64,000 nucleotides of DNA, taken from positions 62,001 through 126,000 of the forward strand of contig NZ_JAHBYG010000004.1 in the NCBI RefSeq assembly GCF_019636075.1, in the 5' to 3' direction. Made by a program: the position numbers and the translations under genes. Origin of the DNA: Ferrovibrio sp. GTDB taxonomy: Bacteria > Pseudomonadota > Alphaproteobacteria > Ferrovibrionales > Ferrovibrionaceae. Below the pieces are notes generated by a model. That model did not search any database and was not told where the DNA came from. It saw only the letters and a list, made by a program, of their open reading frames with translations. Shown here piece by piece: positions 57,399-59,819 of the stretch (the first letter of the stretch is position 1; the number at the start of each line of letters is the position of its first letter).

Positions 57399-57716
57399 GT
57401 GACCGAGAAACGCAAACCGACCTACGACCTGGCTGCCTTTCAAGCTGCCTTTGCTGCGCCGGCGGATTTACGGGCCACCGGCTCGGCACTGAAAGGCGCG
57501 GCGCAACTGGGTTTCGGCCGGGCGGAAATCGTGGCGACGATACAAAGCATGGAACGACGGCATTTCTACAAATCCATGACCTCCCATGCCGATCACAGGC
57601 TCTGGCAGGATGTCTACCATGTGCCCTCCGAGGCCGGCCTTCTGTATGTGAAATTCACCGCGGATGTGCTGAGCGAATTCCTGCTGCTGTCGTTCAAGGA
57701 GAAAGACAATGGCTAA
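57399..57716 (+). CDS. mqsR: MqsR-family toxin
   Basis: The 105-aa toxin begins at GTG 57399 (VTEKRKPTYDL). YDLAAFQAAF, GAAQLGFGRAEIVATIQSM and ERRHFYKSMTSHADHRLWQDVYHV are MqsR motifs, the fold being RelE-like. It cleaves mRNA at GCU in E. coli. Its end overlaps the mqsA start by 8 bp. Unlike most TA pairs the toxin comes first, which is usual for mqsRA. Confidence 0.92.
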   Translation: MTEKRKPTYDLAAFQAAFAAPADLRATGSALKGAAQLGFGRAEIVATIQSMERRHFYKSMTSHADHRLWQDVYHVPSEAGLLYVKFTADVLSEFLLLSFKEKDNG

Positions 57717-58215
57717 TCCCGTCTGTCCGAAAACCGGCAAGCCGATGCGGCGTGGTCGCCGCCGCATGACGCTGACCTACAAGGGCCATTCCGCCAGCTT
57801 CGATATGCCGGGCTGGTATGCTGCCGGCTCCGACGAAAGCATTCACGATGGCAAGGATATGGAAGTATCGGATCGTGCCCTCCATCGCCTGAAGGCCCAA
57901 GTGGAAGGCGTGCTCGAGCCTGAAAACATCCGAAAGATACGCCGCAAGCTCGGCCTTACCCAGCGCATGGCCGGCACATTGATCGGCGGCGGTCCGAATG
58001 CCTTCCAGAAATATGAAAGCGGTGAAGTGCTGGCCAGCCATGCCATCACAAGCGCATTGCTGCTGCTGGATCAACGCCCGGAAGGGCTGCAATTGCTGCG
58101 CCGGCATCGGCAGGCCGTGATGCCGAAACGCAAATCCCCCGCCAGTGGGGTTGGCGGCCTGGGTCGGCTGAAAACAAAACCGCCCGCCAGTGGGGCTGGC
58201 GGGCGGTCTGGTTGA
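57709..58215 (+). CDS. mqsA: MqsA-family antitoxin lacking the zinc ligands
   Basis: The 168-aa antitoxin has the C-terminal HTH: IRRKLGLTQRMAGTLIGGGPNAFQKYESG. The N-terminal domain starts CPKTGKPM, retaining one Cys where E. coli MqsA has two CxxC pairs. LTYKGHSASFDMPGWYA is present. Zinc binding is unlikely in the same form. The final 30 or so codons run through two hairpin-forming G/C palindromes, the second being the speE terminator on the other strand. Confidence 0.88.
   Translation: MANPVCPKTGKPMRRGRRRMTLTYKGHSASFDMPGWYAAGSDESIHDGKDMEVSDRALHRLKAQVEGVLEPENIRKIRRKLGLTQRMAGTLIGGGPNAFQKYESGEVLASHAITSALLLLDQRPEGLQLLRRHRQAVMPKRKSPASGVGGLGRLKTKPPASGAGGRSG
58171..58206 (-). terminator. Rho-independent terminator of speDE, inside the mqsA 3' end
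   Basis: The stem CCGCCCGCCAG/CTGGCGGGCGG (58180-58190 with 58196-58206), loop TGGGG, is followed on the minus strand by TTTTGTTTT. It lies 37 bp past the speE stop. The same DNA encodes the C-terminal tail of MqsA. A weaker similar hairpin lies at 58138-58157. Confidence 0.85.
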
Positions 58216-58242: not shown

Positions 58243-59109
58243 TCAGTAAGGCTTCACGCCCGGGATCAGCTTGCGCACGAAATTCGGCAGGCCGAACGCG
58301 GCGGTGGCGATATCCGGATTGTAATAGCGCAGGCCCTTCAGCGCCGCCTTCTTGAAGCGGGCCGCCACGCTCTTGGAAGCCGAGGCCTTGGCCAGATCCT
58401 GATCGGAGGCCCAGGTCAGCGACATGAAGCCGCAGACATAGGTGGGCACCACGGCCAGGTAGCTGCCGCTGTTTTTCCAGATCTTCTGGAACAGCTTCAC
58501 GGCATCGGTGAGTTCCGGGCCCTGCATATGCGGCACGCCGTTTTGCGCCACCAGGATGGCGCCGGGCTTCATCACGCGCTTGCAGTTTTTGTAGAACTCG
58601 GCGCTGAACAGCACGGTGGCGGGGCCGACCGGATCCGGACGGTCCACGATGATCAGGTCGTAGCGTTCCTCGGTGTCGCGCACCCAGGCGGCGCCATCGC
58701 CGACCACCAGGTTGGTGCGCTTGTCCTTGAAGGCCTTGCCGCAGATCGACGACAGGAACTTCTTCGACACGTCGATCACCACATCGTCGATCTCGACCAT
58801 GGTGGCGCGGCGCACGGATTTGTGCTTCAGCACTTCTTCCAGGATGCCGCCATCGCCGCCGCCGACGATCAGCACGTCGCGCACCTTGCCATGGGCCAGG
58901 ATCGGCAGATGGGTCAGCATCTCGTGATAGACGAACTCGTCGCCCTCGGTGCATTGCACCACGCCGTCCAGGCCCAGGATGCGGCCATAACGGGCGGATT
59001 CGAACACCACCACCTTCTGGTATTTCGACTTGCCTTCGAAGAGGATTTTCTTGATCTCATGGCTCTGCCGGAAACCGGCATAGAGCGTTTCGTTAAACCA
59101 CTTGGTCAC
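58243..59109 (-). CDS. speE: Spermidine/putrescine aminopropyltransferase
   Basis: The 288-aa enzyme transfers aminopropyl groups from decarboxylated AdoMet to putrescine. VLIVGGGDGGILEEVLKH binds the nucleoside, and VVGDGAAWVRDTEERYDLIIVD and NGVPHMQGPEL follow. The start is GTG at 59109; it overlaps the speD stop (GTGA), so the genes are coupled. It is the second gene of speD-speE. A terminator follows. Confidence 0.97.
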   Translation of the reverse strand: MTKWFNETLYAGFRQSHEIKKILFEGKSKYQKVVVFESARYGRILGLDGVVQCTEGDEFVYHEMLTHLPILAHGKVRDVLIVGGGDGGILEEVLKHKSVRRATMVEIDDVVIDVSKKFLSSICGKAFKDKRTNLVVGDGAAWVRDTEERYDLIIVDRPDPVGPATVLFSAEFYKNCKRVMKPGAILVAQNGVPHMQGPELTDAVKLFQKIWKNSGSYLAVVPTYVCGFMSLTWASDQDLAKASASKSVAARFKKAALKGLRYYNPDIATAAFGLPNFVRKLIPGVKPY

Positions 59110-59543
59110 AGAATCAAACCCCGCTTCAGTTCGGTGCACTGGATGTTGTCGGGCAGGAAGGCGCGGCGCAGCACCGGGATCGCCTTCGCCGGCTGGCAAT
59201 CGCCGCACACGAACACGTCCAGCGCGGCATAGCCCTTTTCCGGCCAGGAATGGATCGACATGTGGCTTTCCGCCAGCACGGCCACGCCGGAAATGCCGCC
59301 ATTCGGCTCGAAGTGATGCAGGTCGATGTTGAGCAGCGTGGCGCCGATGGCTTCCACGGCTTCGGTCAGGGTCTGCTTCACCAGGGCCAGGTTGTCGAGA
59401 TTCTTGCCGCCCCACAGATCGATGATCAGGTGCTGGCCGGCGAAGCGCATGCCTTCGCGGCAGATGAAATGCTCGTCTTCCGGCGCCACATCGGTGGTGT
59501 TGGGCACTTCATAGATGGCGGGCTTGGCGGCGTTCTTGCTCAT
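59106..59543 (-). CDS. speD: S-adenosylmethionine decarboxylase proenzyme
   Basis: The 145-aa pyruvoyl enzyme makes decarboxylated AdoMet for SpeE. GQHLIIDLWGGKNLDN and the autocleavage site AESHMSIHSWPE (cleavage expected between Glu92 and Ser93) identify class 1 SpeD. The start is the ATG at 59543 (MSKNAAK); GTGGAGAGACGAGT lies before it. An in-frame extension to 59789 is excluded because it runs through the structured leader. It is regulated, I infer, by that leader. Confidence 0.95.
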   Translation of the reverse strand: MSKNAAKPAIYEVPNTTDVAPEDEHFICREGMRFAGQHLIIDLWGGKNLDNLALVKQTLTEAVEAIGATLLNIDLHHFEPNGGISGVAVLAESHMSIHSWPEKGYAALDVFVCGDCQPAKAIPVLRRAFLPDNIQCTELKRGLIL

Positions 59544-59547
59544 ACTC

Positions 59548-59700
59548 GTCTCTCCACGGGATCGCGAAAGGCCGATCCCAGCAAGGGTTGAAAACGTGGA
59601 GAGACTGTTGGGAAAGCCCCGTGGTTCCGGCCGGTATGTTTCGATCAAGCGATAATCGAAAAAAGCCCGGCGGCCATGCGCCACTTTCCAAACAGTCTCT
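59548..59700 (-). ncRNA. Structured speDE leader RNA with two exclusive folds
   Basis: On the minus strand 59684-59700 pairs with 59600-59616: 17 positions with one mismatch. The enclosed 67 bases form a 5-bp stem (GCCGG/CCGGC) and a 7-bp hairpin (TTTCGAT/ATCGAAA). Alternatively 59595-59605 pairs perfectly over 11 bp with 59548-59558, which contains the speD ribosome site GUGGAGAG. The two folds share 59600-59605 and exclude each other. Between them a 7-bp hairpin (59558-59564 with 59573-59579) sits. A ten-codon frame (MAAGLFSIIA, 59677-59645) lies in the loop with GGAAAG before it. Confidence 0.6.
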
Positions 59701-59819
59701 AGGAGGGGGGTATGGGGCCATTTACCCCCCGATGCAAGAGAAAATTCACCTTTCGGGACAGTTTTTTTCACCTGTGTCGCCCCCATCACACCGCATCGGG
59801 CAAATGTGGCGAAGACATG
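59701..59819. other. Region upstream of the speD leader with a G6/C6 hairpin
   Basis: Arms GGGGGGTA (59705-59712) and TACCCCCC (59723-59730) form an 8-bp hairpin. A possible -35-like TTGCAT lies just upstream on the minus strand. No gene is visible. The promoter of speD must lie here. Confidence 0.5.

Follow-up and report, generated by a model that had tools for sequence, protein, structure and literature searches.

The window, that is the whole 64,000-nucleotide stretch of Ferrovibrio DNA analysed here, carries on its minus strand the genes speD and speE, coding for S-adenosylmethionine decarboxylase and spermidine synthase. The ATG of speD lies at 59543 and is preceded by a leader of 157 nt. 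The two genes share the overlap GTGA (59109-59106), so that the leader probably serves both of them. Upstream (5') of the speD promoter and on the same strand lies a gene for a FemAB/GNAT-like protein (PF13480; 59820-60845), while a convergent MqsR toxin/MqsA antitoxin pair (57399-58215, plus strand; PF15723, then PF15731/TIGR03830) is located just past the end of speE. The features of the leader and of the two genes are as follows:

59732..59737, minus strand: -35 element TTGCAT of the predicted promoter, unchanged in nine leaders
59709..59714, minus strand: -10-like element CATACC, 17-nt spacer, near-invariant (one leader is one C shorter)
59684..59700, minus strand: 5' strand of helix P1, AGAGACTGTTTGGAAAG, from alignment and pairing tests
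59669..59683, minus strand: conserved 5' strand of the inner helix and internal loop (UGGCGCA UGGCCG..; in most species GCGAA), from alignment and RNAalifold
59645..59677, minus strand: small open frame MAAGLFSIIA, not conserved and probably incidental
59617..59632, minus strand: conserved 3' strand of the inner helix and internal loop (..CCGGAACCACGGGG), from alignment and RNAalifold
59600..59616, minus strand: 3' strand of P1, CTTTCCCAACAGTCTCT, from alignment and pairing tests
59595..59605, minus strand: anti-Shine-Dalgarno strand GTCTCTCCACG, overlapping the 3' strand of P1, with 9-17 bp in 9/9 leaders
59559..59580, minus strand: linker hairpin GGGATCGGCC..CGATCCC between anti-Shine-Dalgarno and Shine-Dalgarno, replaced by a different hairpin in other species
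59548..59558, minus strand: speD ribosome-binding site CGTGGAGAGAC, the anti-Shine-Dalgarno partner, from pairing
59106..59543, minus strand: speD, S-adenosylmethionine decarboxylase (TIGR03330, PF02675)
58243..59109, minus strand: speE, spermidine synthase (TIGR00417), with a GTG start overlapping the speD stop codon

The position of the two promoter elements suggests a transcript start at approximately 59702, at the foot of P1. The TTGCAT/CATACC promoter was not listed by a strict sigma-70 consensus scan; a TTGC(AT)-like box occurs at the same place 5' of speD in several other genera.

P1 is formed by positions 59700-59684 with 59616-59600 of the minus strand, with 16 of its 17 positions paired and a U.C mismatch at the remaining one. 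The computed fold of the leader (-68.9 kcal/mol) is more stable than that of shuffled sequences (-56.2 +/- 4.1 kcal/mol; z = -3.1), only 1 of 200 shuffles being as good. We aligned the leaders of nine Ferrovibrio genomes, numbered L001 (that of the window) to L009. P1, an internal loop (UNGCG(A/C)A(C) opposite CGGGG), the inner pairs UGG/CCA and CCG/CGG and a second, two-base bulge (AA or UA) were found to be near-invariant; this conservation extends neither to the terminal loop nor to the linker that leads to the ribosome site. The invariant columns amount to 54/63 in the stem and internal loop as against 27/57 at fourfold-degenerate sites of speD (odds ratio 6.7, p = 1e-5). The same hairpin was independently recovered by RNAalifold, and 97.9% of its cells pair, compared with 29-53% when the strands were slid. 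Compensatory changes convert G-C to A-U at the foot of P1 and also occur in the inner stem (CC/GG, UU/AA and UC/GA). Two-sided changes at three stem pairs account for 8 cells, a level reached by 0/500 shuffles, in a sample of only nine leaders of which two are almost identical. Since 13/16 P1 pairs never vary among the nine leaders, covariation cannot test those pairs. The alignment bears out the structured leader put forward in a preliminary description of this DNA: a conserved, structured and covarying hairpin is present in 9/9 Ferrovibrio leaders, and such a combination is a trait expected of riboswitches. Overall, the leader structure is very probably a functional RNA.

A second helix pairs positions 59605-59595 with 59558-59548 in 11 perfect pairs that include the speD Shine-Dalgarno sequence. 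Positions 59605-59600 are common to this ribosome-site helix and to P1, so that the two cannot both form fully. Both helices and their mutual exclusion had been proposed in the preliminary description, and we found them to be real at these positions of the minus-strand speD-speE mRNA. The ribosome-site helix measures 11, 16, 17, 14, 11, 12, 9, 9 and 9 bp in L001 to L009, respectively. When the downstream part of the window's leader was shuffled, a helix of at least the same length arose in 10/2000 shuffles; the corresponding counts ranged from 0 to 10/2000 across L001-L006 and from 59 to 83/2000 across L007-L009. Pairing cells make up 90.6% of the helix in a composite alignment, compared with 40-58% when the strands were slid, and only one two-sided change was observed. 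Most leaders carry tandem U.G/G.U pairs in this helix; the window's leader has Watson-Crick pairs there. On the opposite strand the tandem G.U pairs would read as A.C mismatches, which places the constraint on the mRNA.

The leader was identified in 9/9 Ferrovibrio genomes with a detectable speD, from a sample of 10 genomes of which the tenth is 72% complete. It was absent from four other genomes of the same family, belonging to four other genera and all with a detectable speD; in these, speD starts lie behind shorter or unrelated leaders that follow a similar TTGC(AT) box. The expectation that homologous speD leaders keep both helices was thus upheld within the genus (9/9), but not in other genera of the family, which are without the element. 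A covariance model built from the nine leaders and searched against family, class and phylum at E 0.01-0.1 gave no match outside the genus among 385 class and 398 phylum genomes, and its weak matches in speD loci of other genera were at chance level. In the source genome the model matched a single place, listed once for each strand, with no other copy. An exact pattern search of 84,980 species genomes returned 3 records in or near Ferrovibrio and 2 chance matches devoid of the P1 stem. To judge by this distribution, the element appears to be a genus-level invention of Ferrovibrio, a structured leader that would have arisen within one genus, downstream of a promoter with a -35 box similar to the one in related genera.

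The leader was then compared with known regulatory RNAs. Rfam gave no family for it, neither at gathering threshold nor at E up to 10, and six other leader loci gave only sub-threshold chance matches outside the leader. No SAM-family match was obtained on the leader at E up to 10, the Rfam SAM models recognising no SAM-I aptamer fold in it. The leader did not match SAM-II (RF00521) either, although one SAM-II match is present elsewhere in the same genome, on contig C27. The speF family (RF00518) matched neither the window nor the leaders, and an order-level genome search gave none either, although that search carries no weight by itself since its controls were silent too. No paper on a speD leader of this type or on Ferrovibrio riboswitches was found in the open-licence literature. 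The earlier statement that no leader of this kind has been described for speD therefore agrees with both the Rfam and the literature searches, and a genus-restricted, previously undescribed, structured cis-regulatory leader is well supported.

For bacterial spermidine synthesis, RNA control has been validated for a single Gram-positive riboswitch class, a variant of SAM-I that acts as a transcription-terminating off switch and was reported from 13 examples (PMC10853860). Like the Ferrovibrio leader, it controls spermidine-synthesis genes including speD and speE and has a narrow distribution (PMC10853860). It is however built from the SAM-I stems P1-P4, whereas the Ferrovibrio leader is a single bulged hairpin near the ribosome site, with no conserved terminator and a predicted on response. 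SAM-II shares with the leader an alphaproteobacterial host, a compact size, a link to AdoMet and occurrence in the same genome, but is a pseudoknot of less than 70 nt. The closest relatives in style are the speF, serC and ybhL leaders of Alphaproteobacteria, which are structured, lie at putative transcript starts and have no ligand found. Specifically, ybhL (RF00520) is a hairpin of about 60 nt with two bulges, confined to one order and placed at a putative transcript start, and serC (RF00517) is a short hairpin, also at a putative transcript start, with the ribosome site inside it (PMC1273637). Both precede other genes and show no sequence match to the Ferrovibrio leader, which in addition has two mutually exclusive helices sharing a strand. 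The speF leader belongs to a polyamine gene, is conserved from near its putative transcript start and has an absolutely conserved outer stem; its gene, by contrast, encodes ornithine decarboxylase, and its upstream region spans about 400 nt in two large domains (PMC1273637). The Ferrovibrio element therefore offers a small, testable alphaproteobacterial candidate 5' of speD-speE, both folds of which are defined to the base.

We next considered the balance between the two folds. With each of them forced in turn, the ensemble energies of the P1 fold and of the ribosome-site fold lie within 2.5 kcal/mol of each other in every leader. When the 5' strand of P1 was deleted, the calculated opening cost of the ribosome site rose by 3-9 kcal/mol in L001-L006, and by only 0.2-1.2 kcal/mol in L007-L009. 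With a strong effect in 6/9 leaders and a weak one in 3/9, the case for a switch is good in part of the genus but weak in one clade. The preliminary description had the P1 fold free the ribosome site, which holds in so far as the blocking helix is shortened; it is not removed, however, because P1 is compatible with a shorter helix, CCACG/CGUGG (in the window's DNA letters, CCACG and CGTGG) or CUGCC/GGUGG. As a putative expression platform, the leader combines strand sharing in 9/9 cases and a strong computed effect in 6/9 with an inner stem that stays formed in both predicted states in most leaders. Since this inner stem persists and the internal loop lies about 16 pairs from the exchanging strand, the route by which binding at the loop would be transmitted is not evident; it would take either a large ligand, for instance a protein, or a rearrangement outside the energy rules.

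We propose that the leader sets the translation of speD, and of the coupled speE, in cis through exchange between P1 and the anti-Shine-Dalgarno helix, a reading to which we assign a probability of about 0.55. Transcription would start at the foot of the long bulged hairpin, whose near-invariant stem-internal loop and second bulge resemble a binding site. The outer five to six pairs of P1 would compete by branch migration with the helix that reaches over the Shine-Dalgarno sequence. With the hairpin complete, only the short blocking helix would remain and speD would be translated; once the foot of the hairpin opens, its 3' strand, rich in pyrimidines, would mask the ribosome site. Control of speD would be direct and that of speE would probably follow by translational coupling through the GTGA overlap, in keeping with the earlier suggestion of a riboswitch-like leader for both genes. 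The hairpin, its conservation and compensatory changes, the complementarity to the ribosome site and the near-balance of the two folds are seen directly in the sequences, their comparison and the calculations; we infer that the folds exchange in cells, that the exchange acts on translation, that the stabilised hairpin is the on state and that something binds the internal loop. Because stabilisation is predicted to switch expression on, a precursor or a protein is a likelier trigger than spermidine; as a leading guess we would name a protein, or putrescine or AdoMet as the precursor. The sensing of a polyamine or of AdoMet is suggested by the identity of the genes alone.

Several readings share this anatomy and differ in the trigger, so that our confidence in them overlaps with that in helix exchange itself. 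One tentative possibility is a metabolite riboswitch, in which the loop and bulges would bind AdoMet, putrescine, decarboxylated AdoMet or a polyamine and a stabilised P1 would open the speD ribosome site. The near-invariant internal loop and bulges in a 5'-end hairpin, the speD-speE context and the balanced alternative fold are all consistent with it, but partial exposure of the ribosome site and the distant loop keep our confidence low. In addition, a single gene context in a single genus gives no independent association, and Ferrovibrio already has SAM-II elsewhere. An on response to ligand would amount to positive feedback for spermidine, whereas the one spermidine riboswitch validated so far works as an off switch, and its authors considered a riboswitch that raises a spermidine-making enzyme upon spermidine binding to be unlikely (PMC10853860). 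The alphaproteobacterial serC and speF leaders, moreover, bound none of the metabolites tried (PMC1273637). A new riboswitch class, in which a single bulged hairpin would serve as the aptamer (for AdoMet, putrescine or a polyamine) and turn spermidine synthesis on by pulling the anti-Shine-Dalgarno strand off the speD ribosome site, is doubtful. Binding of an RNA-binding regulator or of a product enzyme to the bulged hairpin, with a resulting shift in the fold balance, is a possibility as tentative as metabolite binding. Sequence as well as pairing is kept throughout P1, the 13/16 unvarying pairs exceeding what a pocket and its closing stem would need, and protein binding has been suggested for the serC element (PMC1273637); against this, there is no candidate protein.

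The hairpin might instead respond to no signal and serve as a stability element or constitutive tuner, protecting the 5' terminus against 5'-end-dependent decay and fixing the level of translation. The predicted transcript start at the stem foot, the strong fold and the weak switch in three leaders fit such a role, but the invariant loop and bulge bases and the conserved complementarity between stem and ribosome site would be left unexplained, and we regard it as improbable. Far less plausible is a DNA operator, an inverted repeat bound by a transcription factor: the repeat lies directly 3' of the promoter and its stem bases are invariant, but the spacing of the arms varies by about 20 nt, and the compensatory changes of the inner stem, the strand-specific G.U pairs and the ribosome-site complementarity all argue for RNA. 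Attenuation through a leader peptide, MAAGLFSIIA or its equivalents, seems just as remote. An ATG does follow GGAAAG by a few nucleotides in five leaders, and the small frames of L002 and L006 extend up to the speD start. The start codon is however ATG in 5/9 leaders and CTG in 4/9, and the frames run for 9, 10 or 43 codons, or into speD, with unrelated residues after MAAG or LAVG. The small frame put forward earlier as a sensor is therefore rejected, neither its start nor its length nor its residues being conserved in the nine leaders; the bases that are conserved around it are explained by the hairpin.

Further alternatives were discarded. An RNA thermometer was rejected as P1 occupancy in most leaders differs only slightly between 20 and 45 C. 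A second alternative pairing, between the invariant internal-loop strand ACCACGGGG and the stretch before the ribosome site, spans 9 nt in L006-L009 and about 7 nt in the window's leader and is not conserved in the other four, where it is absent. In L006-L009, ACCACGGGG is exactly complementary to CCCCGUGGU, which lies just 5' of the ribosome site. An intrinsic terminator or transcription attenuation was rejected as a shared mechanism, U-runs after a hairpin being present in some leaders but missing in L001, L003 and L005. The linkers of L002, L004 and L006-L009 contain, between the anti-Shine-Dalgarno and Shine-Dalgarno sequences, a terminator-like hairpin with a run of U only a few bases beyond it.
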